35,861 bases of DNA from an uncultured Erysipelotrichaceae bacterium. GTDB taxonomy: Bacteria; Bacillota_I; Bacilli_A; Erysipelotrichales; Erysipelotrichaceae. The position numbers were made by a program, and so were the translations under genes. Below the pieces are notes generated by a model. The model did not search any database. It was not told the DNA's origin and was given only the letters and a program-made list of their open reading frames with translations. Positions 8,511 to 25,002 of this stretch are shown in pieces; position 1 is the first letter of the stretch, and each line of letters starts with the position of its first letter. The stretch lies in assembly GCA_945877405.1 (NCBI GenBank), contig CAMCSA010000022.1, positions 1 to 35,861 of the forward strand. Reading direction: 5' to 3'.

Positions 8511-8536
8511 ACGAAAAAGCCGTGGCTAACGGCTTT
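8511..8536 (-). terminator. Rho-independent terminator overlapping the clostripain-like gene's stop codon
   Basis: Minus-strand AAAGCCGT-TAGCC-ACGGCTTT forms an 8-bp stem followed by TTCGTTTT. The TAG stop codon lies in the loop. The adjacent TTTGACC palindrome could extend the termination signal. Confidence 0.75.
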
Positions 8537-10598
8537 CGGTAAGAGGAAAAGTGAGCATCTGTGAAAAGATGGATGTACCCTGATCATCCTTGAGCTGAAT
8601 GGACAGCAGTAATGGCTGATCTGTTTCCTCATACTTCAGATAGAGGTTATCGGATAAGGTAATCGAAGGGAAACATGTGTAAGTGCCACTGAATGTTCCA
8701 TCCTGTCCATACATGTCATACAGGAATGTGATCTGATCCCCTTTGTGTAACGTACGCATGCCTTTTGGGGAAACTGTGCTGTCAGGATACAGCACATATG
8801 CACCAGACAGTTCCATGCGGAATCCGAAGCGGTCCTGACATGCTACAAGCAGTACTTCCTGATCATTGAGCATGGCGTGGATATAACCGATCGTGTTGCC
8901 GGAAGGATCTGTGTAAAAGGAGGTAAATGGCACAGGCTGTCCTTCATAATAATACCATTGTGCCTCCGATGGAAAACGTGGGATGTGATTGGAAGTGACA
9001 GTGGTGGAAGCTGTGGCTCCAAGGGAAAGATATGCAGATCCATATGGCAGAAAACATGCCATATTCGCATTCTGAATGTGTGTGGTATCACTTTGGTTCA
9101 TATTTAGAATATACTGATCATTGCGACGGGTAATCTGTAAAGAAGTGGAAGAAACAGAGGCATCGATAACCTGCTTTGCTGCGGCAAGCACGGTTTCCTG
9201 ATCATATAGATCGGTATTCCATGAGACGGAAGAAGTCAGCAGTTCAGGTGTGATGGGCTCAATAATCTGTGTTTCCTGATGGGTGAGTCGATCAGATAAC
9301 GATGGGAAGACAAGTGAAGTGTAAGCATCCCTTAAAGAGGTAAACAGGGCAAAGGTCTGCAGGAAATCCCGATAGCCCTGTGGAAGTAAGATGGAAGAAG
9401 TGGTGTATGGACAAGTAAAGCTGAGGCCATACATGTTTGCAGTAGATGAGGTACGCCTGTATTTGATCATCTGTGTGATGGCATCAAACAGATCCTGAGC
9501 TGTATCCAGTGAGAAGCGATGGGCAAAATGTGCCAGATCGATTCTTGTCCTGGAAAGACGGGTAGTGGAGGAAAGAACATCGCATAGAGTCTGATATGTA
9601 CCGTTTGCCAGAATGGTATTCAGCTCTTTGCCGAATGCATCCAGTACGTTTTCATGAAGATAACGGATCTCACTCAGGTCCAATAAGGAAAGAACATAGG
9701 CATCCTGCATGCCTTTCTGGGCATGGTTGATGGCATAGGAGTCAACCAGCAGTTTTCCAAGGGATAACGTAGAAACCGATGTGTTTCTGGCAAGAGAAGT
9801 CAGGAAACTCTGATACAGCATGCCTTCACTGGAAACAGATGTTTCAAAGGCTGTCAGATAATCGGTGTATGGTTCAAGCAGAAGTGCATTTTCGTATGTA
9901 CCGGCAAATGGCGCATCCAGACAGATCATATCAAAGCTGGAATGGATACGGCTGAGTACACCGGCAATCTGGTTGTAGGAAAGATCGGTATGAATACCAT
10001 CCGGATCATAACCGAATGACAGACTGCTTCCACTACCTGATAAAAACAGGAATGTACGATCGGATGGATATTGACTTACTCCATACTTAATAAAGTCATA
10101 CAGCGTATCCGGATCACACATGGATGAGGCATCCGGATGTGACATGGATGGTACAAGTTTCTCATTGTCCACAGTCCATCTTTGAATCGTGTCATCTTCC
10201 AGAATCTTTGAATTCCATGAGGAACTGCCGCCGGTCTGAACGACAATATTCATGCGGTCACTATCGGATGCATACAGAATGTTATTCAGAGTGTTGATGG
10301 TTGCTGAGGCACTGGATGGCTCATCACTTCCAATCAGATAGAACAGAACTGTTACGGTATCCTTTCCGTTTCCTTTCGGTTCAGTATATTTATCTCGTGC
10401 ATGTACGGATACGGATTCATTCAGTTCCACAAAGGAGTGGTCCGTATAGTCGTTATCCTGCAGGGAATCAGAACCATAGAAATAGGTGCTGATCCGGGCT
10501 GGCATCAGCATGCTCACCGCAAAATGACCACTGAACATCAGGCACATACAGACAAGCAGAATCCGTATGATCTTTTCTTTCTTCATGGCAAACATCAT
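8526..10598 (-). CDS. Exported clostripain-fold (C11) protein lacking both catalytic residues
   Basis: About 690 residues with an N-terminal signal anchor (IIRILLVCMCLMFSGHFAV). Residues ~80-250 follow the clostripain C11 pattern: VTVLFYLIGSDEP, NIVVQTGGSSSWNS, IQRWTVD, DPDTLYDFIKYG, YPSDRTFLFLSGSGSS, FDMICLDAPFAGTYENALLLEPYTDYLTA. In active C11 enzymes the last two elements read WxHGGG (catalytic His) and DACLMxxxE (catalytic Cys). Here the His position is Ser189 and the Cys position is Pro230 (codon CCA at 9911-9909). The beta-rich remainder is unassigned. Start uncertain: Met at 10598, or 10586 (MKKEK), neither with a clear ribosome binding site. It is divergent from the Pel operon. Probable pseudoenzyme, perhaps a binding or scaffold protein outside the membrane. 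Confidence 0.8.
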   Translation of the reverse strand: MMFAMKKEKIIRILLVCMCLMFSGHFAVSMLMPARISTYFYGSDSLQDNDYTDHSFVELNESVSVHARDKYTEPKGNGKDTVTVLFYLIGSDEPSSASATINTLNNILYASDSDRMNIVVQTGGSSSWNSKILEDDTIQRWTVDNEKLVPSMSHPDASSMCDPDTLYDFIKYGVSQYPSDRTFLFLSGSGSSLSFGYDPDGIHTDLSYNQIAGVLSRIHSSFDMICLDAPFAGTYENALLLEPYTDYLTAFETSVSSEGMLYQSFLTSLARNTSVSTLSLGKLLVDSYAINHAQKGMQDAYVLSLLDLSEIRYLHENVLDAFGKELNTILANGTYQTLCDVLSSTTRLSRTRIDLAHFAHRFSLDTAQDLFDAITQMIKYRRTSSTANMYGLSFTCPYTTSSILLPQGYRDFLQTFALFTSLRDAYTSLVFPSLSDRLTHQETQIIEPITPELLTSSVSWNTDLYDQETVLAAAKQVIDASVSSTSLQITRRNDQYILNMNQSDTTHIQNANMACFLPYGSAYLSLGATASTTVTSNHIPRFPSEAQWYYYEGQPVPFTSFYTDPSGNTIGYIHAMLNDQEVLLVACQDRFGFRMELSGAYVLYPDSTVSPKGMRTLHKGDQITFLYDMYGQDGTFSGTYTCFPSITLSDNLYLKYEETDQPLLLSIQLKDDQGTSIFSQMLTFPLTESR

Positions 10599-10676
10599 AT
10601 CATTGACTGCTCATCCATGCATCATAAAATCATTTGTCACAAGATGATATGGATGGTTCTTTTCAGCGGTTGCCTT

Positions 10677-10704: not shown

Positions 10705-12822
10705 ATGAGCGATCTTTTCATAGGTGAATGGGATTGTGCAGGAGCGCATACAGCGGACAGAATGATCCGTGAAGGACATGATGTATGCTGGATCACAAAA
10801 ACCCCATCCAGGATGTTATGGAGCGAGCGGTTTAAGGGAAAGGTCTATCAGGACATTCATTCCAAGGATGAATTTCATCGGATTCTCCATTCCAACTCGG
10901 TTGAAAACGTATTTTTCATGACCGGAGATAACAGAGAGACAGCTCTGTATGGAAATGCGAATATGAGTGATTCTGATTATCTGTCCATCGTCATGGAATA
11001 TCTGCGGGATTATCAGCTGAACTGTTTTGTGCTGTTTTCCTCCATTGAAGCAGATGCAACCTCCATCAATACTCCATCCATTGCCAGAATCCGCAACCAG
11101 GAACAGATGGCACAGGCTTATGGCACAACCTATCAGATGCCTGTTCTGATTCTTCGCTTACCACCGGTATTCTCTTCCCGAATGTCGGAAAATGACTGTT
11201 ATATTTCCTGGGCAATGAAACAGATCAGAAGTCAGAAAACCATTCAGTGTCCCTTTCCATCGGATGCATACATGGATGCTCTGGAAGGAGAAGATATTGC
11301 CAGTGGTGTATATGCATTGTTGAAAAACGGATATACCGGCTTATACAGGATGACGAGCGGTCATCCGATCCGCATGGATGACTTCTACCGGATTCTTTCA
11401 GAAGTTGCAGAGAAAAAAGCGGATGTCATATATGACAGCTATGGGCTTCGGATTCCATCTGAGTGGTACAGGAATGATCGCAGAATCAAGGATGAAACAG
11501 GATGGATGCCATTTCATCTGTTACAGGAAGAAAGTGGAATTGAAATACTCAGAGCTTCTTTGTTGAACGGGGAAAAGAACATCACGGAAAAGAAATCCTT
11601 TCTGCAAAGATTCAGAAGCAGTTCAGGCAACACAGCTGTGATTGCTGTGGTGGAAACACTTGGGTTATATGTGATCATGGAACTTCTTCTGAAAGTGACT
11701 CCATCCGTCTCTGATCTGAAATATGTGGATGTCAGGCTGATGTTTGTTGCGATCTGCTGCAGCATGCATGGTATGGCAACAGGCGTGTTTTCAATCATTC
11801 TGGCTTGTGCCTCCTATATCCTGCATCTGTATCTGGCACATGTGGATGTTGCCTATTTTCTGTATCAGATTGATTCATGGATTCCATTTGCGTGTTATAT
11901 TGCGATGGGTGGCGTGATCGGATATATGTCAGATGTGCTGCACGATGAAAAGCAGGCATTGCAGGAAAAAAACCAGCTGCTCAATGAAAAATACATGTTT
12001 CTCAAGAAAATCCATCAGGAAACACTGCAGATCAAAAAGCAGCTGCAGAAACAGATTACGACTTCCTCCAACAGCTTCGGCCATGTATATGAAGTGACTT
12101 CACAGCTGGATACACTCAATCCGGAAGAAATTCTTGTGCATGTCATCGATATTCTGGAAGATGTCATGCAGTGTCATCAGGCAGCTATTTTCCTGCTTGG
12201 GAAAGACTATGCCAGAAGAAGGGCGTGTTCACCGGATCTGAAAGCACAGCTTGGAACTTCGCTCAAACTGGAAGAAGTTCCTGAGCTGATGCAGTCCTTC
12301 CGGGAAGGGGAAGTTTTTGTCAATACGCAGATGCTTGTGGATTATCCGGATATGGCATCCCCGATTTATGCCCATGGAAAGCTGTATGGATTTGCGGCAG
12401 TATATGATCTGCCACCTGAAAACTTCACTGTTTTCTATCAGAATCTGCTGCGGATCCTGACAAGCCTGATTGAGAAAAATCTTGGTAAGGCACTGCAGTA
12501 TGAGGAAGCAAGAAGATCGGAAATGTATGTGGAAGGAACTGAATTGCTGCATCCGGATGCCTTCAGGCAACAGTGGAAGCTTCTGACACAGATGGATGAG
12601 AATGGCTATGTTGACTGCATGAAATGTCATGTGAAACCACTTGTGCCGATGAGTACGGAACAGATTGCGGAAAGAATGCAGTCTGTGATCCGTAATAACG
12701 ACTTTATGGGTATGGATGACGATGCATATGCAGTGGTATTGATGAATATGAATCCATCTTACCTGGATCAGATCAGAGAAAGGTTTGCCGCAAAAGATCT
12801 TTCGATTGAGGTGGTAAAATGA
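10705..12822 (+). CDS. pelD: PelD-type c-di-GMP receptor fused to an N-terminal SDR/epimerase-like domain
   Basis: 705 residues in four parts. Residues 1-290 follow an extended SDR sugar-epimerase (VFFMTGDN, FVLFSSIEAD, VLILRLPPVF), but the glycine motif reads GEWDCAG and the YxxxK positions appear to be Ser125 and Ile129, so catalysis is unlikely. Residues ~310-410 hold about four membrane helices. A charged coiled coil (~412-450) leads to a GAF-like domain (~460-595). The end is a degenerate GGDEF domain: the active-site motif is DDDAY (671-675), while RNND (663-666) sits where the c-di-GMP inhibitory site RxxD lies in GGDEF proteins. The helices-GAF-GGDEF order is that of PelD, which switches on Pel export when c-di-GMP binds. 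First gene of the operon; overlaps pelE by ATGA. Confidence 0.85.
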   Translation: MSDLFIGEWDCAGAHTADRMIREGHDVCWITKTPSRMLWSERFKGKVYQDIHSKDEFHRILHSNSVENVFFMTGDNRETALYGNANMSDSDYLSIVMEYLRDYQLNCFVLFSSIEADATSINTPSIARIRNQEQMAQAYGTTYQMPVLILRLPPVFSSRMSENDCYISWAMKQIRSQKTIQCPFPSDAYMDALEGEDIASGVYALLKNGYTGLYRMTSGHPIRMDDFYRILSEVAEKKADVIYDSYGLRIPSEWYRNDRRIKDETGWMPFHLLQEESGIEILRASLLNGEKNITEKKSFLQRFRSSSGNTAVIAVVETLGLYVIMELLLKVTPSVSDLKYVDVRLMFVAICCSMHGMATGVFSIILACASYILHLYLAHVDVAYFLYQIDSWIPFACYIAMGGVIGYMSDVLHDEKQALQEKNQLLNEKYMFLKKIHQETLQIKKQLQKQITTSSNSFGHVYEVTSQLDTLNPEEILVHVIDILEDVMQCHQAAIFLLGKDYARRRACSPDLKAQLGTSLKLEEVPELMQSFREGEVFVNTQMLVDYPDMASPIYAHGKLYGFAAVYDLPPENFTVFYQNLLRILTSLIEKNLGKALQYEEARRSEMYVEGTELLHPDAFRQQWKLLTQMDENGYVDCMKCHVKPLVPMSTEQIAERMQSVIRNNDFMGMDDDAYAVVLMNMNPSYLDQIRERFAAKDLSIEVVK

Positions 12823-13727
12823 ATCCGGTAACTGCAGTGATGATGATTCTGTATGTATGTACAGCTGTATTTCATGCCTGGCTGACTCTGGTGCAGGGAA
12901 AGGGTATGATCAAAGGTCTGTATGTGCTTGTCATGGATCTTGCATTACCAGGATTCGGATTCTTCTTCCTGTGGTTCTGCGATATTCTTTCTGTCAAAAG
13001 CAGGAAAAACGGATTTGAAGAAATGAGCGAGAACCGGTACTACGATGAAGATAATCTGCAGCTTATGCAGGCACCTGATTCAAAAAGTGAAATGGATCGG
13101 GTATCGATGAAAGAGGCACTGCAGTTCAATTCGTATGGTTACCGCAGAAATATGATCATGCAGATACTGATGGAAGAGGATCCTCTGCAGTATCTGGATG
13201 TACTGCAGCAGGCACTCAATAACGATGATACGGAAACTTCCCATTATGCCAGCACCATTATCATGGAACTGCAGAGAAAGATGCAAGAAGAAATCTCAGC
13301 TGCCAGATTTGCCTTTGAAAGAGATCCAGAAAACATGGAAAAGGCTAAGGCAAGTGAGCAGATTCTGTATCGGGTCGTGATGAGTGAGCTGTTTGATGAA
13401 CATAACAGAGCTTTGCTTGTACATGAGTATCAGGATGTCATCCATGCCATCATGGATCATGGAGCGATGAATGAGACCTGTTACAGGCATGATCTGGATG
13501 TGCTGATTGCGATGAAAAACATGACAGAGGCAGATCGGATATCGAAACTCTATATGGAACGGTATCCGGAAAGTGAAGATGCACTGGCATATGTGATGAA
13601 ATGTCTGATCGCTTCAAGAAATGGGGCGGGCATGCAGGAACTGATCCGAAAGCTGCCATCATTGCCGGTGACATTGACACAGAAAACACTGCCGTATGTG
13701 CGCATGTTTTATAGGAGTGTTGAATGA
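12819..13727 (+). CDS. pelE: PelE-like membrane protein with helical repeat domain
   Basis: 302 residues. Two N-terminal membrane helices (TAVMMILYVCTAVFHAWLTL and GLYVLVMDLALPGFGFFFLW) are followed by a cytoplasmic all-helical region (~80-300) with TPR-like spacing, for example SHYASTIIMELQRKMQEEIS and MTEADRISKLYMERYPESEDALAYVMKCL. This is the PelE layout, and its place between PelD and PelA is the conserved order in Gram-positive pel operons. PelE is thought to bridge PelD to the synthase. Starts within the ATGA of pelD and ends in an ATGA with pelA, so the three are translationally coupled. Sequence similarity in PelE is low, so the call leans on order and topology. Confidence 0.75.
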   Translation: MNPVTAVMMILYVCTAVFHAWLTLVQGKGMIKGLYVLVMDLALPGFGFFFLWFCDILSVKSRKNGFEEMSENRYYDEDNLQLMQAPDSKSEMDRVSMKEALQFNSYGYRRNMIMQILMEEDPLQYLDVLQQALNNDDTETSHYASTIIMELQRKMQEEISAARFAFERDPENMEKAKASEQILYRVVMSELFDEHNRALLVHEYQDVIHAIMDHGAMNETCYRHDLDVLIAMKNMTEADRISKLYMERYPESEDALAYVMKCLIASRNGAGMQELIRKLPSLPVTLTQKTLPYVRMFYRSVE

Positions 13728-15562
13728 AAAGAAAGCATGAAAAAAGACTGATCATCGTATTTGTTGTGTGTCTTGTGTGCTCCATGATTGTTGTACAGGC
13801 AAATTCGGATTACAGACTGAAGGCACAGCTGGCAGATGAACAGGTGGTTGTAATGCGAACGGATGTGGATGAACCTGCCATCCTTACAGATACGGTCATG
13901 CATGCCCTGGTGCTGTATGGAGACGAAACGACAGATGAAAAACTGCTTGAAAATACGGAAACAGTCATGGAACATATGCGGATTGATTGTGATCTGCTGC
14001 AGATGGAACGGTGTGACAGTGTTGATCTGAACAGATATGATCTTGTTGTGATTGCTTCGGATCAGCTGGAAGAGAAGCTGAATATTCCAATGAATAACAT
14101 CCTGTCCTGGGTGGAAAAAGGGGGAAAGCTGTTCTGGGGCATTATCCCATCTTCACTAGGACCACAGTTCTACAGTGTATATCGGAAACTGGGAATGCTG
14201 GAATGCAGTGGATACATGCAGTATGAAGGAATGCAGTTTGAAAAGGAGCTGATTCCAGGAACCGGAAATGAAAGTTTTACCGGAGAGTCGTTTGTGGATG
14301 TGGGATTGACTGTGAATCTGGCGGACAGTGCAGTCGTATCCGTTACTTCAGAAAACGATGGAAAAACGGTGCCGGTTGTATGGTCAAATCAGGTTGGTGA
14401 AGGCAGAACCGTGTTTTATAACGGAACTTCTTTGAAAGGTGATTTCTGGAGAGGATTTCTTGCTGGGTGCATCAATGCACTGTTTGAGGTCAATATGTAT
14501 CCTGTGATCAATGCTTCCTGCATATTCATTGATGACTTTCCTTCTCCACAATACGAAAACACTTCCGATGTGACAAAGAAGGAATATAACCGTACGGTAA
14601 AGGAATTCTATCGTGATATATGGTGGCCTGATATGCAGAAAGTGGCAAATCGGTATGGTGACCGTTATGTCGGGCTGTTTATCGCAACATATAACGATAT
14701 TGTTGATCCGGATGAATTTACCTATGAGGAGCCATCCATGGAACAGTATTATGGAAACTCTCTTCTGAAAGCAGGACACGAAATGGGTGCACATGGCTAC
14801 AATCACCAGTCACTCACTCTGGCAGGCGGTACGCCAGAGGAAATGGGATATCAGCCATGGGAAAATACAGCTGATATGGCTGCTTCATTAAAGGAACTGG
14901 ATGAAATCAGGCAACGACTGTTTCCATCTGTTACCTTCAGAACGTATGTACCACCATCCAATTATCTTTCATCACAGGGAAGAGAAGCTGTAAAGAAGGC
15001 ATTCCAGGATGTTCGAATCATCTCTGGTACGCTGTCCTCAGAAGGGGAAGAAGGCGAGGTATGCCGGCAGGATTTTGAAACCGGAAAAGATGGTATTGTT
15101 GATTTTCCAAGAATCACATCCGGTATGATTCTGGATGATTTTGGAAGATTCCAGATGGTAAACGGGATTGGTTTATATGGAGTCATGTCTCATTTCATTC
15201 ATCCGGATGATCTGTTTGATGCTGAAAGGGGACAGGGAAAAACATGGCAGCAGCTGTATGAAAGCTATTGTCAGATGATGGAGTGGTATCATTCCAGTTA
15301 TCCGACCATGCGTTCCTTAACAGCTGTGATGGCTGCAGATGCGCTTCAGGTGTGTGAAAATGCAGTGCCTCATATCATCTATGGTGAAGATGAGATTACC
15401 GGCAGTATTGAAAATTTTACAGGGGAAAGTTTTTTCTGGCTGAGATGTGAAAGTACGCCGGTTGTATTGGATGACAGCTGCCAGATTACAAGGATGGATG
15501 AAGGAGAATACTATATGGTTACTGTGAAATCCACCAATTTCAGGATCGGGTTACGCTCATGA
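13724..15562 (+). CDS. pelA: PelA-type polysaccharide deacetylase (membrane-anchored)
   Basis: 612 residues with an N-terminal membrane anchor (LIIVFVVCLVCSMIVVQA). Residues ~55-250 form an alpha/beta domain of the DUF2194 type. The deacetylase domain then shows its metal-binding elements: CIFIDDFPSP (Asp270/271), and HGYNH (His357 and His361) inside GAHGYNHQS, then RTYVPPSNY and IVDFPRIT. These are the CE4-like residues of the PelA deacetylase that removes acetyl groups from the Pel polymer. The hydrolase part of Pseudomonas PelA is absent, as in the short Gram-positive version. Located outside the membrane by its anchor. Overlaps pelF by ATGA. Catalytic residues look intact. Confidence 0.85.
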   Translation: MKRKHEKRLIIVFVVCLVCSMIVVQANSDYRLKAQLADEQVVVMRTDVDEPAILTDTVMHALVLYGDETTDEKLLENTETVMEHMRIDCDLLQMERCDSVDLNRYDLVVIASDQLEEKLNIPMNNILSWVEKGGKLFWGIIPSSLGPQFYSVYRKLGMLECSGYMQYEGMQFEKELIPGTGNESFTGESFVDVGLTVNLADSAVVSVTSENDGKTVPVVWSNQVGEGRTVFYNGTSLKGDFWRGFLAGCINALFEVNMYPVINASCIFIDDFPSPQYENTSDVTKKEYNRTVKEFYRDIWWPDMQKVANRYGDRYVGLFIATYNDIVDPDEFTYEEPSMEQYYGNSLLKAGHEMGAHGYNHQSLTLAGGTPEEMGYQPWENTADMAASLKELDEIRQRLFPSVTFRTYVPPSNYLSSQGREAVKKAFQDVRIISGTLSSEGEEGEVCRQDFETGKDGIVDFPRITSGMILDDFGRFQMVNGIGLYGVMSHFIHPDDLFDAERGQGKTWQQLYESYCQMMEWYHSSYPTMRSLTAVMAADALQVCENAVPHIIYGEDEITGSIENFTGESFFWLRCESTPVVLDDSCQITRMDEGEYYMVTVKSTNFRIGLRS

Positions 15563-16980
15563 GAGTGTGTCTGATTGCGGAGGGATGTTATCCCTATGTG
15601 GCTGGTGGTGTATCATCATGGATTCAGATGCTTGTCAAAGGGCTTCCTGACTATGAGTTTGTCATCTATGCCATCGGAGCAACAAAAAGCCTCAAAGGTA
15701 TCTATAAATATGAAATCCCTTCCAATGTCAGTGAAATCCATGAAGTATTTCTGGACCAGTTTGCGGATACGGGCAGTCGACATGTGGAAGGAAAGCATCT
15801 GAAGGAAGAAGAAAGGCTGGCTCTGATTTCCTTACTGAAAGGAGAACTGGAAGACTGGTCTGTTCTGTTTGAACTGTTTGGGGAAAACGGAAGAATGAAG
15901 GCAAATGATTTCCTGATGTCAGATGATTACCTGGATATCATCATGACTCTTGCTGCAGATGAATTCCGCAATGTTCCATTCAAGGATGCATTCTGGACAA
16001 TCCGTTCCATGCTGATACCGCTATTAAATCTGCTTTCCTGTAAACCTGTGGAAGCGGATGTCTATCATACGGTAGCTACAGGTTATGCAGGTGTGCTTGG
16101 TTCTCTGTTCCATCATCAGACAGGCAAACCGTTTATTGTAACGGAACATGGTATCTATACAAGAGAAAGAGAAGAAGAGATTCTCAAAGCAGACTGGGTA
16201 TCCGTTTATTTCAAGAAATCATGGATCAGCTTCTTTACATCGCTTTGCCGGTGTGCCTACCACAGTGCGGATCGGATTGTTTCTCTGTTCTATGGAGCAA
16301 GGAAAATTCAGATCAGCCTTGGAGCACCAGCGGAAAAATGCTCAGTCATACCAAATGGAGTCAATGTGGATCGTTTTGCTCATATTGAACCATTGCCTTT
16401 ACAGAGCGATACCTTCAGCATTGGGGCGGTCATCCGTGTTGTGCCGATCAAGGATATCAAGACGATGATCTACAGTTTCAATCTTGTCCGCCTGAAAAGA
16501 GCAGATGCAAAGCTGTATCTGATCGGACCGACGGATGAAGATGAGACTTATTATCGGGAATGCACAGAACTGATTGAAAACCTTGGTTGTGAGAATATCG
16601 AATTTGTCGGCAGAGTGGATGTGGCAAAGTGGCTTGGAAAACTGGATCTGCTGATTCTGACAAGTATTTCGGAAGGGCAGCCGTTTGTCTTACTGGAAGC
16701 AATGGCGGCACATCGTCCGGTACTTTCCACCAACGTCGGTTCCTGCAGTGAAATCATCAATGGGTTTCCGGATGAGTTTGGAAAGTGTGGCAGGGTTGTG
16801 CCTGTCATGAATCCTTCTGCCATTGCCCAGGGCATACTGGAAATCGGTAAAAGCAGACAGCAGATGAGAGAAATGGCGGAAAACGGTTATCACAGAGTCA
16901 ACAGATATTATCGGGATGATGATTTTCTGAAGAATTACAGAAGCCTGTATGAAGAAGTGAGGCAGGAATGGCAGGAGTAG
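15559..16980 (+). CDS. pelF: PelF glycosyltransferase (GT4)
   Basis: 473 residues, the normal PelF length. The N-terminus MRVCLIAEGCYPYVAGGVSS is characteristic (glycine-rich donor loop), followed by VTEHGIYTREREEEI, VIPNGVNVDRF, and the C-terminal nucleotide-binding ISEGQPFVLLEAMAAHRPV with the paired glutamates of GT4 enzymes. PelF is the soluble cytosolic transferase that polymerises UDP-GalNAc/GlcNAc into the Pel chain, working with PelG. Overlaps pelG by 13 bases. Confidence 0.92.
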   Translation: MRVCLIAEGCYPYVAGGVSSWIQMLVKGLPDYEFVIYAIGATKSLKGIYKYEIPSNVSEIHEVFLDQFADTGSRHVEGKHLKEEERLALISLLKGELEDWSVLFELFGENGRMKANDFLMSDDYLDIIMTLAADEFRNVPFKDAFWTIRSMLIPLLNLLSCKPVEADVYHTVATGYAGVLGSLFHHQTGKPFIVTEHGIYTREREEEILKADWVSVYFKKSWISFFTSLCRCAYHSADRIVSLFYGARKIQISLGAPAEKCSVIPNGVNVDRFAHIEPLPLQSDTFSIGAVIRVVPIKDIKTMIYSFNLVRLKRADAKLYLIGPTDEDETYYRECTELIENLGCENIEFVGRVDVAKWLGKLDLLILTSISEGQPFVLLEAMAAHRPVLSTNVGSCSEIINGFPDEFGKCGRVVPVMNPSAIAQGILEIGKSRQQMREMAENGYHRVNRYYRDDDFLKNYRSLYEEVRQEWQE

Positions 16981-18446
16981 GGTTTGAACTCAAAAAAGTA
17001 TTCAGAGAAAATGGCGGACTGCTGAATTCACTCCGTGGTTTTTCTTTGACCGCTGTCATTACGGAAGGTCCGATGATCTTGACGATGGTCATGTTGTGGG
17101 GAAACAGAATGCTGCTGAAGATGAACCATGGAACATTCAGGCAGGAAGAAATCTATCTGTTTTCCATTACCTATGTCATGATCTTTTCGCTGATTCTTTC
17201 CAATTCCGTACTGATGTTTGTGGACAGATTCATATCCGACTGCATCTATCAGAAAAAGATAGACAGCATACTGCCATCCTTCTTTGGGATCATACTTGTA
17301 CTGAATCTGATCGGTGTTCCTGTATCCTTGCTGTATCTTTCAACCATACCAATGTCAGTTGTATGGAAAGCTGCTGTTCTGACATGTTTTTCCACAATGC
17401 TTATCATATGGGTACAGATGGCATATCTTTCTGCCATTCACCAGTACAGTTATGAGCTGCTTGGATTCTTTGCGGGAAGTATTGTATCTCTTGGGGGATC
17501 ATTGATTCTGGTGAGACTTGGTGTGGATGGGCTGTTATCTGTTACATGTGGTACAGCGTGTGGCTTTCTTGTCATGTTATGCATGTTCATGACAGAACTG
17601 ATTGCCTTTTTTCCGCTTGAAAACTTTGATATTCTTTGTTTTCTGCCATCGCTGGATCATTATCGGATTCTGATTGTGATCGGTATTCTGATGGCGCTAG
17701 GCTTGTATGGGCATAACTTTGTGTTCTGGCTGTCTGAATATGCAGACCATGTATTTCAAACCGGTGTATTCTGTACCAGATATGATGTACCGACCTTTTT
17801 TGCAACACTGACAATCATTCCATTGCTTGTGCGGTTTGTTGTGTCTTTGGAAACATCATTTTCCGTCAAGAATAAGGCATATTTTTATACGATTCTTGCT
17901 GGAGGCAGGTTTGATGATATCATGGCGGCAAAAAAAGACCTGATCAATACGCTGTATCGTGAGCTGGTAAGAACGATGGAATCACAGCTTGTCTTTACAC
18001 TTCTTGCGGTCATCTTTCTCGGGAATGTTCTTTCTTCCAGTGGCCTGGATGAAGCAATGCTTGGAATCTTCCGCACTCTGTGCTTTGGCTACTGTATCTA
18101 TGGAATGGTCAAGTCAATGACAATCATTCTGCTTTATTTTGATGATCGCAAAGGGGCATGTGTCGCAGCAGCTCTATTTACGGGGACAACCATTACCTTC
18201 TCTTTGGTTACGCTGTTTCTGCCGGTATCGACATGGGGTGTGGGATTTCTGACAGGGAATGCAATTGCGTTTGTCTGGCTGATGATCCGCATCCGGTATA
18301 TGATGGAACATCTGGAATACAAGGTGTTCTGCCAGCAACCGTTATTTGTTGATGATCATATCGGCACATTTGAAAAACTGAAGAAAAGGATTGACAGAAA
18401 GGAAGAGGAATATCGCAGCAGGAGGAAAACCCATGAGAAAAGATAA
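16968..18446 (+). CDS. pelG: PelG polytopic membrane protein (Pel export)
   Basis: 492 residues beginning MAGVGFELKKVFRENGG, the conserved PelG start, with about twelve hydrophobic segments (e.g. SLTAVITEGPMILTMVMLWG, IDSILPSFFGIILVLNLIGV, LLAVIFLGNVLSSSGLD). PelG belongs to the MOP-type flippase-related family and forms the inner-membrane polymer transporter with PelD, PelE and PelF. The C-terminus is a short basic tail that overlaps the cotH-like start by 14 bases. Overlap at both ends argues for strict co-expression. Confidence 0.92.
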   Translation: MAGVGFELKKVFRENGGLLNSLRGFSLTAVITEGPMILTMVMLWGNRMLLKMNHGTFRQEEIYLFSITYVMIFSLILSNSVLMFVDRFISDCIYQKKIDSILPSFFGIILVLNLIGVPVSLLYLSTIPMSVVWKAAVLTCFSTMLIIWVQMAYLSAIHQYSYELLGFFAGSIVSLGGSLILVRLGVDGLLSVTCGTACGFLVMLCMFMTELIAFFPLENFDILCFLPSLDHYRILIVIGILMALGLYGHNFVFWLSEYADHVFQTGVFCTRYDVPTFFATLTIIPLLVRFVVSLETSFSVKNKAYFYTILAGGRFDDIMAAKKDLINTLYRELVRTMESQLVFTLLAVIFLGNVLSSSGLDEAMLGIFRTLCFGYCIYGMVKSMTIILLYFDDRKGACVAAALFTGTTITFSLVTLFLPVSTWGVGFLTGNAIAFVWLMIRIRYMMEHLEYKVFCQQPLFVDDHIGTFEKLKKRIDRKEEEYRSRRKTHEKR

Positions 18447-20157
18447 TCGCACGTTATATATCGGATTCATACTTGTTCTTGTTGTGACGGTAGGGCTTTC
18501 GATTGTCCGTTATGACATGATGCATCATCAGGATGAACAGGGAACCATACAGCAGGTTACAGTCAATAAAGAGAACTCATCGGAAGGTGATATGAAAGAG
18601 GATACATCTGTTTATGATCAGGATGACCCAGGCAGTGTAGTCTGCTTCTATGTGACTGTCAGAAGGGGTGATAAAGGAAGTGATACGGATCACAGCTTTG
18701 CGGATGTGAATAACGTTGTGAGATTTGTTAATGATACACATGTTGCCCAGGATGTATATGCAAGGGCACTTGTGCAGGTTGGAGACGAAAGTGGACCTGT
18801 TATGGGGATGCTTGGTTATGGCACAACGGAAACCAATGCGCGTATCCGCATCCGAGGTAATTCTTCGTCCGTCAGACCTCAGAAATCATACAAGCTGGAT
18901 CTGGATGATGAGGCAGGTCTTTGGAGAGGACAGAGTAATATTGCACTGAATAAAAGTGTTTTTGATGTGACGAGAATCAAAAACAAGATGTACTTTGATC
19001 TTCTGAAAAATGTACCGGATGTACCATCCATCCGGACACAGTTTGTACATCTTTATATTAAGGATGAGACGTCAGGTTCTGAAACATTTCAGGATTATGG
19101 ATTCTATACACAGGCGGAAGTACCATCGAAAAAATACCTGTCCAACCATGGATTTGATCCAAATGGATATCTGTATAAGGCAATCAGTTTCAATTTTGAA
19201 ATGTCGGATGAACTGAAAACGGTGGATGATCCATCCTATGATCAGGCTGCATTTGAAACAGTGCTCAGCTGCAAAGGCAGAGAAGACCATACAAAGATTT
19301 TGAATCTGATCGAAATGATCAATGACCGTTCCATGGATATCAACGATATCATTGGGACCTATATTGATCGGGACAATTATATTACATGGCTTGCCTACAA
19401 TATTTTGATGGCAAACATTGATACGACCATGCAGAACTTCTATCTGTACAGTCCACTCAACAGTGATAAATGGTATTTCATACCATGGGATGGAGATAAT
19501 ATGCTGCATGTGAAGGAAGATGAGATGGAAGGATTGACGTCTGCCTATGGCTCATACCAGCATGGAATATCCAACTACTGGGGTATCATCCTCCATCAGC
19601 GGTTTCTGAAAGTGGATTCCAATCGGAAAGAACTGGAAGAAAAGGTGGATGAGCTGTACCAGACAATCAATCCGCAAAGTGTACAGGCAATGGTGGATGC
19701 ATACAATCAGACGGTGGAGCCGTATGTCCTTTCCAATCCTGACTATTATTATCTTGGTCATACAAAGCAGGAGCGTGATCAGATTGTAAACGGCCTTGGA
19801 AAGGAAGTAGAAGATTCGTATCTGGCGTTCAAAGCAAGTCTGCATGAACTGATGCCGATGTATGAAACTGCCAGAGATAATGGAAATGGAAATGTGACAC
19901 TGCTATGGACAGAAGCCTATGATTTTGACAATCAGGATGTCAGCTATCACGTTACCGTATCAGAGTATCCAGATATGAGGAATCCGATCATCGATCAGGA
20001 TGAAGCGCTGACACAGATTGATGTTCAGCTGCCAGTGGGCACATATTATCTGCGTGTGACAGCCTGTACTTCAGATGGCAGAAACAGTGAAGCAATGGAT
20101 AAAATCAATGTCAATGATGTGTATTATCCAGGGGTCATCCGCTTTGAGGTAAAATGA
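18433..20157 (+). CDS. CotH-family kinase-like protein, membrane-anchored
   Basis: 574 residues from the ATG at 18433, chosen because AGGAGG lies seven bases upstream inside pelG; an upstream in-frame ATG at 18391 lacks one. One N-terminal membrane helix (LYIGFILVLVVTVGLSIV) places the rest outside. The CotH kinase domain is recognised by RIRIRGNSSSVRPQKSYKLDL, GYLYKA, NYITWLAYNILMANIDTT and the Asp-containing YFIPWDGDNM that corresponds to the metal-binding WDxD motif. A C-terminal fibronectin-III-like beta domain (~485-570) follows. CotH kinases phosphorylate spore-coat proteins in Bacillus; here, with Pel genes, an extracellular matrix protein or polymer is a possible target (inference). 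Confidence 0.85.
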   Translation: MRKDNRTLYIGFILVLVVTVGLSIVRYDMMHHQDEQGTIQQVTVNKENSSEGDMKEDTSVYDQDDPGSVVCFYVTVRRGDKGSDTDHSFADVNNVVRFVNDTHVAQDVYARALVQVGDESGPVMGMLGYGTTETNARIRIRGNSSSVRPQKSYKLDLDDEAGLWRGQSNIALNKSVFDVTRIKNKMYFDLLKNVPDVPSIRTQFVHLYIKDETSGSETFQDYGFYTQAEVPSKKYLSNHGFDPNGYLYKAISFNFEMSDELKTVDDPSYDQAAFETVLSCKGREDHTKILNLIEMINDRSMDINDIIGTYIDRDNYITWLAYNILMANIDTTMQNFYLYSPLNSDKWYFIPWDGDNMLHVKEDEMEGLTSAYGSYQHGISNYWGIILHQRFLKVDSNRKELEEKVDELYQTINPQSVQAMVDAYNQTVEPYVLSNPDYYYLGHTKQERDQIVNGLGKEVEDSYLAFKASLHELMPMYETARDNGNGNVTLLWTEAYDFDNQDVSYHVTVSEYPDMRNPIIDQDEALTQIDVQLPVGTYYLRVTACTSDGRNSEAMDKINVNDVYYPGVIRFEVK

Positions 20158-20158
20158 T

Positions 20159-20845
20159 ATGTACCGTCATGAACTGAAATTTCTGATTACCAATGTGGAT
20201 AAAACAGAACTGCGTAATATACTGCAGCATTTCTGCCATCATGACAGACATGCCATTGATGGATTCTATTCCATTTCATCTCTGTATTTTGATGATATTT
20301 ATCACACAGCATATCAGGAAAAGCTGGATGGTGTGGAAATCAGAAAGAAATACAGAATCAGGATCTATAACTGCAGTGATTCTGTCATATCACTGGAATG
20401 CAAGTATAAAAACGGGCAGTATATTCACAAGGAATCTGTCAGGCTGACACGTGATGAGTATGACAGCATTCTGGAAGGAAACGTCTCATTTCTGCTTGAA
20501 AAGAAAGAACCTCTGGCGAAGGAATTCTATGTGGATTATAAAACAGCACTGTTACGGCCATGTGTCAATGTGGTATATGAACGTGAACCGTTCATATATG
20601 ATGCAGGAACTGTACGGATCACCTTTGATGAAAACATACGTGCTGCCAGATGTACAGATGATCTGTTTGATCCATCTGCACCATCCTGGGCAGTTTTGCC
20701 ACCAGGACAGCTTGTTCTGGAAGTGAAGTTTACCGGACTGTTACCGGAAAGAATTCGAAGAATCTTTCTGAAGTATGGATATGTACAGAGCCAGGCATCC
20801 AAATTCTGTATGTGTCTTGAGAAGATCAATGGTCTGTTGCGATAA
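20159..20845 (+). CDS. VTC-domain polyphosphate-polymerase-like protein
   Basis: 228 residues covering a single VTC domain. Residues lining the polymerase tunnel of the yeast Vtc4 family appear present: YRHELKFLI (Glu5, Lys7), RIRIY (Arg66, Arg68), LECKYK (Glu80, Lys82), Lys91, VRITFDENIRA (Arg153) and VLEVKFTG (Glu188, Lys190). No membrane helix, so cytosolic, unlike the eukaryotic Vtc complex. Starts one base after the CotH-like stop codon. It is followed directly by the DUF4956 membrane gene, which may supply a membrane channel. Polyphosphate or another phosphate polymer as product is inferred from family only. Confidence 0.85.
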   Translation: MYRHELKFLITNVDKTELRNILQHFCHHDRHAIDGFYSISSLYFDDIYHTAYQEKLDGVEIRKKYRIRIYNCSDSVISLECKYKNGQYIHKESVRLTRDEYDSILEGNVSFLLEKKEPLAKEFYVDYKTALLRPCVNVVYEREPFIYDAGTVRITFDENIRAARCTDDLFDPSAPSWAVLPPGQLVLEVKFTGLLPERIRRIFLKYGYVQSQASKFCMCLEKINGLLR

Positions 20846-20857
20846 GGAGGAATTGAA

Positions 20858-21547
20858 ATGATTTACTATGATACAATCACATTTACGGATATTTTCAAAA
20901 AGTCCATTCTGAAGCTGATGCCGGAAGCAATTGATCCGCTGGTTCTGTTTCTGACCATCGCAATCGCATTTCTTGTCGGACTTGGTATCTTCTTTGTCTA
21001 TCGCAAAAACTTTCTTGGTGTGGTATATGACCATTCCTTCAATATTTCTCTTGTGATCATGACAATGCTGACAGCGGTGATTATTGTGACGATCAGTACC
21101 AATATTACGTTGTCGCTTGGTATGGTCGGTGCACTTTCCATCGTCAGATATCGAACGGCTGTAAAGAATCCTTTGGATCTGATGTTCATGTTCTGGGCGA
21201 TCGCATCCGGTATCGCAATCGGTGCACAGTTCTACTACATTGCTGTAATTACTCTGTTTCTTGTGGCACTGGCATTATCTGCACTGCGGCGTATCCGCAA
21301 TGATGATCATCTGTATCTGCTGATCATCAACTATGATGCGGATTCAGATCTTGAGGAAAACATTCTGCGCCAGCTGGAGAAACGCAGACCGAAGCTCCGC
21401 TCCAAAATTGTGAAAAAAGGAATGTGCGAGCTGACACTGGAAGTGTATCTGAAAACAGAAAATATAAATCTGACATCCGAAATCTCTGCATTAAACGGTG
21501 TAAAGGATGTGACTCTTGTGCAGTATCGCGGATCTTATGAAATCTGA
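20858..21547 (+). CDS. DUF4956 membrane protein
   Basis: 229 residues with about four membrane helices between residues 25 and 145 (PLVLFLTIAIAFLVGLGIFF, ISLVIMTMLTAVIIVTIS, the conserved LGMVGALSIVRYRTAVKNP loop, and IAVITLFLVALALSAL), followed by a soluble C-terminal alpha/beta region ending LNGVKDVTLVQYRGS. The SIVRYRTAVKNPLDLMFMFWAI stretch is the hallmark of DUF4956. AAGGAGG precedes the start. The family regularly sits beside VTC and CotH genes, which suggests a joint function, still unknown. Last gene of the operon; no terminator is visible before tRNA-Asn. Confidence 0.88.
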   Translation: MIYYDTITFTDIFKKSILKLMPEAIDPLVLFLTIAIAFLVGLGIFFVYRKNFLGVVYDHSFNISLVIMTMLTAVIIVTISTNITLSLGMVGALSIVRYRTAVKNPLDLMFMFWAIASGIAIGAQFYYIAVITLFLVALALSALRRIRNDDHLYLLIINYDADSDLEENILRQLEKRRPKLRSKIVKKGMCELTLEVYLKTENINLTSEISALNGVKDVTLVQYRGSYEI

Positions 21548-21600: not shown

Positions 21601-21676
21601 GCCTTAATAGCTCAGTCGGTAGAGCACTTGGCTGTTAACCAGGGTGTCACAGGTTCGAGTCCTGTTTAAGGCGCCA
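21601..21676 (+). tRNA. tRNA-Asn (anticodon GTT), copy 1, CCA encoded
   Basis: A full cloverleaf folds: acceptor GCCTTAA/TTAAGGC, D stem GCTC/GAGC, anticodon stem CTTGG/CCAGG (one G-U) around CTGTTAA, T stem ACAGG/CCTGT around TTCGAGT, discriminator G then CCA. Identical over all 76 bases to the copy at 24927. Confidence 0.97.
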
Positions 21677-23771: not shown

Positions 23772-24806
23772 ATGGGTGAGTTTGTGGGAAGCAGGGGAGA
23801 AACAAAAGAATTGATTACTACAGATAATATTCGCAGTAAAGTATATATCATTCGTGGACAGCAGGTTATGCTTGATAAAGATCTGGCAGAGATTTATGGG
23901 TATGAAGTCAAACGATTGAATGAGCAAGTAAAGCGAAATATCAGTAGATTCCCAGAGGATTTCATGTTTCAGCTGAATAAAGAGGAAATACCGGAGAGAT
24001 TTTCAAAGTCGCAATTTGCGACTTTGAACGAAAAGAATAATAAACAGGGATCGAACGTGAAAAAGATGCCTTTTGCGTTTACAGAACAAGGAATCTATAT
24101 GTTGGCGACAGTACTTCGTGGAAAAATGGCGGAACAGCAAAGTATTTTCATAATGCGAGCCTTTAGAGAAATGCGGCATTATATTGAACAGAATAGGCAA
24201 TTTGTAACAAAAACGGAAATGGAGTTACTCTCAGCTAAGGTAGTTGAAATATCAGCAAAGACTTCTGGGTTAATAGATCAACAGAAGCATACAGACCAAA
24301 AAATGGATTTACTTCAAAAAAATATTGAGCAGCTAAGTGATAATTTTATTTCGGAAAAAGATGCCAGGAATTTTGTGATTTATAAAGGGCAGAAGTTCGA
24401 GGCTGACATTGCTTACATTGAAATTTATCAACAGGCAAAAAAATCCATTTATGTTGTGGATGATTATCTGAACGCAAAGTCGTTACAGCATCTTTCTCAG
24501 AAGGGTGATGGGGTGGAAGTTGTTTTATTCACAGAAAATGGAAAAGGCAGGAAGGGATTTCTTACACATTCTGTAGTTACAGATTTTCAGAATGAATATC
24601 CATCTCTTCGGATTAAACCAAATCCCGAGTGCCATGACAGGTTAATTGTACTGGATTATGGTGAGGAAACAGAACGGGTATATCACTGCGGAGCATCTAG
24701 TAAGGATGCAGGAAAAAAGCTTTGCGCAATTAATCAGATTTCAGAAAATGCAATGATACACCCGGTAATCGATCGATTACTTTTGTTGCCGGATAAACAG
24801 ATATAA
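23772..24806 (+). CDS. ORF6N-domain DNA-binding protein with C-terminal PLD-like domain
   Basis: 344 residues. Residues ~18-110 are an ORF6N domain as in phage antirepressors (GQQVMLDKDLAEIYGYEVKR, RFPEDFMFQL, PFAFTEQGIYMLATVL). A coiled-coil-like stretch (~140-200) links to a C-terminal domain (~205-340) with a phospholipase-D-like fold signature: the key motif reads HDRLIVLD, so the usual HxK is HxR, followed by YHCGASSKDAGKK. Nuclease activity is therefore uncertain. GGAGG sits five bases before the start. The stop codon abuts the right 68-bp repeat. Such proteins occur in prophages and accessory islands; antirepressor, regulator or defence roles are all possible. Confidence 0.85.
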   Translation: MGEFVGSRGETKELITTDNIRSKVYIIRGQQVMLDKDLAEIYGYEVKRLNEQVKRNISRFPEDFMFQLNKEEIPERFSKSQFATLNEKNNKQGSNVKKMPFAFTEQGIYMLATVLRGKMAEQQSIFIMRAFREMRHYIEQNRQFVTKTEMELLSAKVVEISAKTSGLIDQQKHTDQKMDLLQKNIEQLSDNFISEKDARNFVIYKGQKFEADIAYIEIYQQAKKSIYVVDDYLNAKSLQHLSQKGDGVEVVLFTENGKGRKGFLTHSVVTDFQNEYPSLRIKPNPECHDRLIVLDYGEETERVYHCGASSKDAGKKLCAINQISENAMIHPVIDRLLLLPDKQI

Positions 24807-24926: not shown

Positions 24927-25002
24927 GCCTTAATAGCTCAGTCGGTAGAGCACTTGGCTGTTAACCAGGGTGTCACAGGTTCGAGTCCTGTTTAAGGCGC
25001 CA
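24927..25002 (+). tRNA. tRNA-Asn (anticodon GTT), copy 2, CCA encoded
   Basis: Identical in all 76 bases to the copy at 21601, with only about ten further identical bases upstream. The two form a 3.3-kb direct repeat around the accessory segment. Confidence 0.97.

Follow-up and report, generated by a model that had tools for sequence, protein, structure and literature searches.

Gram-Positive Pel Operons and Their Accessory Genes

Operons for Pel, a polysaccharide of biofilms, in Gram-positive bacteria have been described in both genomic and genetic studies. Whitfield et al. (2020, PMC7112168) reported genes for CotH, a polyphosphate polymerase, DUF4956, and DUF4832 contiguous with pelDEADAFG in streptococci and clostridia, as well as a variant of this accessory group in bifidobacteria; the published set varies with regard to DUF4832. 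More recently, the accessory genes of Streptococcus intermedius were deleted singly (2025, PMC12345266), and Pel was still produced. In that study the CotH mutant made less Pel and the DUF4956 mutant made more, while aggregation in artificial sputum fell by more than half in each; for the mutant in VTC, the polyphosphate polymerase, no effect on aggregation was highlighted. The same study reports that the trio of CotH, VTC, and DUF4956 was not found outside Pel loci.

Here we describe an operon that joins Pel genes to this trio in a 35,861-nucleotide stretch of contig CAMCSA010000022.1 (the window) from an uncultured Erysipelotrichaceae bacterium. Since this operon type has been described before, the window adds one more example of it. 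The additions beyond published work are PelG and CotH in one open frame, an exchangeable partner for a constant VTC-DUF4956 pair, and a corrected distribution of the trio. Loci and genomes used for comparison carry L and G numbers, respectively.

Organization and Recurrence of the Operon

The operon consists of eight co-directional genes, pelD-E-A-F-G followed by cotH, VTC, and DUF4956, at positions 10705-21547 of the + strand:

10705..12822, + strand: pelD, with an epimerase-like N-terminus (Pfam Epimerase), membrane helices, a GAF-like part, and a putative degenerate GGDEF domain
12819..13727, + strand: pelE, with two membrane helices and a soluble part
13724..15562, + strand: pelA, deacetylase-like DUF2194/DUF2334 (Pfam), with one N-terminal helix and FIDD and HGYNH motifs
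15559..16980, + strand: pelF, a GT4 glycosyltransferase and Pel polymerase (Pfam DUF3492 and GT4; NCBIfam PelF NF038011, 3e-119)
16968..18446, + strand: pelG, a polytopic exporter-like protein (Pfam PF16933, 8e-111)
18433..20157, + strand: cotH-like kinase gene (Pfam PF08757, 8e-62), product with an N-terminal membrane anchor
20159..20845, + strand: VTC-domain protein of the polyphosphate polymerase family, soluble (Pfam PF09359, 5e-37)
20858..21547, + strand: DUF4956 membrane protein (Pfam PF16316, 1e-9), with predicted helices in a possibly MgtC-like membrane part and a C-terminal ACT-like domain

The open reading frames (ORFs) and their junctions agree with the tight spacing given in the preliminary description of the sequence. 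Overlaps of 4 bases occur at pelD/pelE, pelE/pelA, and pelA/pelF, of 13 bases at pelF/pelG, and of 14 bases at pelG/cotH, followed by gaps of 1 base at cotH/VTC and 12 bases at VTC/DUF4956. The cotH ORF as listed begins at a TTG at 18391, upstream of the ATG at 18433; the latter is the most likely start, and the 14-base overlap follows from that choice. This spacing suggests one transcript for all eight genes, while a scan of the window for consensus promoters and terminators gives weak evidence in either direction.

The assignment of the Pel genes to the Gram-positive DEAFG arrangement, which is already published (PMC7112168), is supported by Pfam and NCBIfam matches and by gene order. PelE has no meaningful Pfam match and is named because of its place in the operon and its counterpart in L067. 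PelA possesses the deacetylase domain alone, without a hydrolase domain (Pfam), and PelF adjoins PelG as in other Gram-positive Pel operons. Although PelD has no Pfam GGDEF match, it keeps an I-site-like R663-x-x-D666 ahead of a degenerate DDDAY, in addition to R691/R693. Because this RxxD is retained and the window's genome encodes 12 GGDEF domains, control of the operon by cyclic diguanylate (c-di-GMP) is plausible.

The cotH, VTC, and DUF4956 genes are contiguous on the 3' side of pelG in the window. The eight-gene order is found again in L067, L098, and many named genomes and is therefore not due to chance. PelG was not found in the congeners G092, G327, and G377, as would be expected of a chance adjacency confined to this strain, but that explanation is refuted by recurrence of the gene order in G127, G303, 24 named Pel-linked loci, and published genomes, and has practically no probability left.

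Distribution of the CotH-VTC-DUF4956 Trio

The trio is a portable set that occurs mostly away from Pel. A draw of 198 genomes from the window's class has DUF4956 in 62 and PelG above the cut-off in 2, with PelG absent from 60 of the 62 genomes having DUF4956; among 392 genomes of the phylum, PelG exceeds the cut-off in 3. VTC adjoins DUF4956 in the same run in 57 of 60 loci of the class draw, and these 57 comprise 23 loci with CotH but no Pel, 16 with a Cthe_2159 protein instead, 17 with the pair only, and 1 with Pel. Similarly, 80 loci from named genomes with DUF4956 include 24 that are Pel-linked (23 having CotH) and 36 trios without Pel, the remainder being 8 with Cthe_2159, 6 with the pair only, 4 others, and 2 near a different PelF-like polysaccharide cluster; VTC adjoins DUF4956 in nearly all of them. 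The named-genome scan retained the closest relatives of the window's DUF4956 protein, so Pel-linked loci are over-represented in these counts, and a few trios lie near contig ends, where Pel genes could fall outside view. In the order of a Paenibacillus (248 genomes), DUF4956 is present in 170 genomes and PelG above the cut-off in 40, and 138 of the 170 lack PelG (overlap counted by hand). Furthermore, L157 (Paenibacillus lactis) and L178 have the trio in genomes that, searched whole, give no PelG match.

These results correct the published failure to find the trio outside Pel loci (PMC12345266). The preliminary description had called the trio recurrent, which dozens of loci bear out, and had proposed a gene-neighborhood survey, in which the adjacency to pelG proved not to be confined to one strain. 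In contrast, the idea of the trio as a Pel-specific unit does not hold, as most trios occur away from Pel and S. intermedius still produces Pel when any one accessory gene is missing. The accessory genes are portable rather than a Pel specialty, and functions proposed from Pel alone are therefore too narrow.

Several variant loci accompany this pattern. The trio lies beside a PelF-like GT4 cluster with no PelG in L107:7589-18269 and L112:7453-18997; these clusters also encode unknown proteins, and L112 adds an HD-domain protein. Two cotH genes are present in the Pel loci L105, L109, L117, L170, and L175, and L128:7767-10681 is a Pel locus without cotH in which VTC-DUF4956 directly follows pelG on its 3' side. 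At L100:8916-10633, a DUF4956 gene whose product is 62% identical to the window's comes directly after a fragment of PelD (382 residues), an arrangement we attribute to a deletion or an assembly fault.

A Constant VTC-DUF4956 Pair with an Exchangeable Partner

VTC-DUF4956 is the constant core of these loci, and its extracellular partner has been switched repeatedly between CotH and a carbohydrate-binding Cthe_2159 protein. In a tree of VTC plus DUF4956 from 132 loci, the Pel-linked modules fall in a few clusters, with 7 label changes, and the choice between CotH and Cthe_2159 needs 6 changes; both counts are approximate, as the tree search was brief and gave long-branch warnings, and short contigs supplied some of the labels. 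A VTC-CotH fusion in L061 was considered and rejected, as the joined frame crosses a run of N in the contig. SigI/RsgI-type regulators precede the trio in L072, L074, L077, L078, L079, and L090, relatives of the window's genome.

The type member of Cthe_2159 binds the polyanion polygalacturonate. That the alternative partner is named a carbohydrate-binding protein by Pfam fits a view in which exported polyphosphate is itself a polyanion bound to cationic, deacetylated Pel, with CotH or Cthe_2159 anchoring or trimming it, and there is a precedent in yeast VTC, where polyphosphate export is coupled to a membrane part. However, no aggregation loss was reported for the S. intermedius VTC mutant and the modules are mostly outside Pel loci, and we regard this explanation as improbable.

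PelG and CotH in One Open Frame

The link between pelG and cotH is stronger than the overlap first noted, since many genomes encode both in a single frame. Four Paenibacillus genomes and Rummeliibacillus stabekisii (L106, L108, L110, L125, and L163) encode a PelG plus CotH protein of 1029-1088 residues; these five frames are free of N, and Pfam finds both domains in both of the two tested. Of 45 PelG frames that pass the cut-off in the Paenibacillus order, 20 are longer than 1000 residues. CotH is present in all 14 of the long frames fetched as loci, and one more belongs to the L110 genome. By comparison, none of 9 PelG frames above the cut-off exceeds 1000 residues among 195 genomes of the Clostridium order. 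The fused form is a single group in the VTC plus DUF4956 tree. No PelG-CotH fusion is mentioned in the main texts that treat both proteins, supplements and most subscription journals lying beyond the scope of that search.

In all 19 sequences checked, basic residues and a hydrophobic stretch at the junction are accompanied by a lipoprotein box (lipobox), which reads L-S/T/A-A/G/S-C in 18 and T-T-A-C in 1. Such an internal lipobox would place CotH outside the cell. A separate CotH arising from an internal start was tried as an explanation and rejected: in a simple motif scan, no in-frame start before the lipobox is accompanied by a Shine-Dalgarno match of at least 4 bases in any of the 19 sequences, and in 9 of the 19 there is no in-frame start whatever in that region. 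The single frames support a CotH acting outside at the exporter. They also make the mouth of the exporter, for a direct physical reason, the place to search for the kinase substrate, and form a simple system for testing this.

The same frames bear on the possibility that CotH alone regulates Pel through protein phosphorylation, as Whitfield et al. hypothesized, and that VTC-DUF4956 is a separate, co-transcribed phosphate-handling unit. They tie CotH, not VTC, to the exporter; in addition, VTC-DUF4956 also exists without CotH, and in S. intermedius the loss of CotH and the loss of DUF4956 have different effects. On the other hand, CotH and VTC-DUF4956 occur together in dozens of Pel-free loci, so CotH is linked to the pair independently of Pel, and the supply of adenosine triphosphate (ATP) for an outside kinase is not obvious. 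On balance this division of labor seems rather unlikely, with perhaps a one-in-four standing.

Catalytic Residues and Folds of the Accessory Proteins

Alignment and spacing identify Asp330 and Asp353 of the window's CotH as the catalytic Asp228 and Asp251 of Bacillus subtilis CotH, a kinase that is inactivated by changes at its catalytic Asp residues. The two residues are kept in 64 of 65 and 65 of 65 aligned proteins. A strict text pattern for the catalytic motif was discarded, as it recovers only 32 of 64 proteins, whereas alignment shows the residues to be conserved. About one third of the CotH proteins of other loci contain a lipobox.

Of the yeast VTC subunits, Vtc4 is the best match to the VTC profile (E 2.6e-22), and the window's VTC keeps the residues that align with Vtc4 K200, R264, R266, R361, R373, E426, and K458; the impaired yeast VTC complex carries R264A/R266A/E426N. 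The outside-facing kinase and cytosolic phosphate-polymer enzyme anticipated in the preliminary description are supported as predictions by the N-terminal anchor of CotH, the soluble character of VTC, and the intact catalytic residues of both proteins. A search of the window's genome, a draft assembly, for PPK1 alone gave no match. The idea that VTC generally takes the place of PPK1 is not supported, since 15 of the 62 class-draw genomes with DUF4956 also have PPK1, compared with about 8 expected by chance (hand comparison).

In the DUF4956 family, an SIVRxR stretch of the membrane part is invariant or near-invariant. The structural model has a mean predicted local distance difference test score (pLDDT) of 87, falling to about 67 in a re-entrant stretch near residues 81-100. 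For the ACT-like end, the best Foldseek matches include 2lqj, the C-terminal domain of MgtC; the fold searches gave no usable match for the membrane part, as matches to the ACT-like domain took up the listing; a PDB sequence search gave no match to DUF4956. Pfam matches to MgtC are weak and sub-threshold (E 0.002-0.009 in 4 of 5 tested). These weak but repeated MgtC matches, together with the ACT-like domain and the SigI/RsgI-type regulators beside some trios, could indicate that VTC-DUF4956 serves phosphate or magnesium homeostasis as an MgtC-like unit and is placed with Pel through shared stress regulation. Such a role would leave the constant pairing with secreted partners and the PelG-CotH frames unexplained, and we give it little credence.

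Proposed Role of the Module

The mechanism that we favor, tentatively and with somewhat less than even confidence, is that the operon directs synthesis of a Pel-type polysaccharide, controlled by c-di-GMP, and carries a portable VTC-DUF4956-CotH module that modifies Pel by way of polyphosphate and an outside kinase. PelF would polymerize Pel, PelD, PelE, and PelG would export it, and PelA would deacetylate it. On the inner membrane face VTC would make polyphosphate, and its membrane partner DUF4956 would probably take the chain, by analogy with the membrane part of yeast VTC. CotH, held outside at the exporter, would phosphorylate either a surface protein or the polymer as it emerges. The outcome would be an altered amount of cell-retained Pel and altered cell-cell sticking, not Pel production itself; in this reading, the most likely one, the module modifies Pel rather than makes it. 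In its favor, S. intermedius has less Pel when CotH is lost, and more Pel but weaker aggregation when DUF4956 is lost. Gene order, protein families, catalytic residues, the recurrent VTC-DUF4956 link, and the PelG-CotH single frames are observed here, while we infer that polyphosphate is exported, that VTC is coupled to CotH, and what the kinase uses as substrate and donor. The preliminary description had hypothesized that the module phosphorylates Pel or supplies it with an anionic polymer, and both are carried forward here as hypotheses.

Several observations weigh against this mechanism. One linear pathway predicts equal effects of its parts, whereas the S. intermedius CotH and DUF4956 mutants shift Pel in opposite directions and the VTC mutant shows no singled-out aggregation change. 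Most trios occur without Pel genes, and Pel therefore cannot be the general substrate. The likeness of DUF4956 to MgtC may point to regulation or ion homeostasis besides transport, and our literature search found no polyphosphate, phospho-sugar, or kinase assay for the module.

A broader and more speculative possibility, to which we attach a low probability, is that VTC-DUF4956 is a bacterial plasma-membrane polyphosphate synthase-exporter that supplies phosphate to exchangeable surface partners in the ATP-poor exterior, either a CotH kinase with polyphosphate as its donor or a polyanion-binding Cthe_2159 protein; the kinase and the Pel exporter of the Paenibacillus group would be a single chain, maybe cut at the internal lipoprotein site. 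If VTC-DUF4956 does export polyphosphate, this would explain how an extracellular bacterial kinase could be supplied with a phosphate donor.

Flanking Features

The sequence around the operon contains the following:

8526-10598, - strand: clostripain-family (C11) peptidase gene, directly upstream of pelD and divergently transcribed
10603..10630, + strand: promoter-like site TTGACT-16-TAAAAT, 5' of pelD, weak; such sites are not above shuffles in number
21601-21676 and 24927-25002: identical pair of transfer RNA (tRNA)-Asn genes, with 3.3 kb between them
23772-24806: gene for an ORF6N-domain protein

The stretch between the two tRNA-Asn genes, which includes the ORF6N-domain gene, has a lower guanine plus cytosine content (0.383) and is possibly an inserted element.

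Comparison with Known Systems

The operon in the window shares with the Gram-positive pelDEADAFG operons (PMC7112168) the core genes and their order, the accessory genes directly 3' of pelG, and the epimerase-like N-terminus of PelD. In contrast to those operons, no DUF4832 gene is contiguous with DUF4956 in the window, where the tRNA-Asn gene at 21601 comes next; L067 does have one after DUF4956. Similar to the S. intermedius pel locus SIR_1591-1594 (PMC12345266), the window has CotH, a polyphosphate polymerase, and a membrane plus ACT protein beside Pel, whereas many trios are found here outside Pel and that paper mentions no PelG-CotH fusion.

The Clostridium perfringens locus NELoc-2 (2010, PMC2879425) contains VTC, a small membrane protein, CotH, a HEAT-repeat protein, and a glycosyltransferase, with order and lengths as in L062, L064, and L075, and so resembles the same module next to a glycosyltransferase gene. 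In L064:3453-11782 the trio is followed by a 692-residue protein, a HEAT-repeat protein, and a chitin-synthase-like GT2, as in NELoc-2. NELoc-2 differs from the window in having no Pel genes, and its small membrane proteins, called tubulin/FtsZ in the original report, are probably DUF4956.

The likeness to the yeast VTC complex lies in the Vtc4 catalytic residues and in a polymerase that is there coupled to a membrane part; the window's VTC differs in having no SPX domain, and its membrane part is a separate, possibly MgtC-like protein. Finally, compared with the spore-coat kinase CotH of B. subtilis and B. cereus (5jd9), the CotH proteins described here share the kinase domain and both catalytic Asp residues but are membrane-anchored or lipoproteins, have an extra C-terminal part, and occur in a context other than the spore coat.

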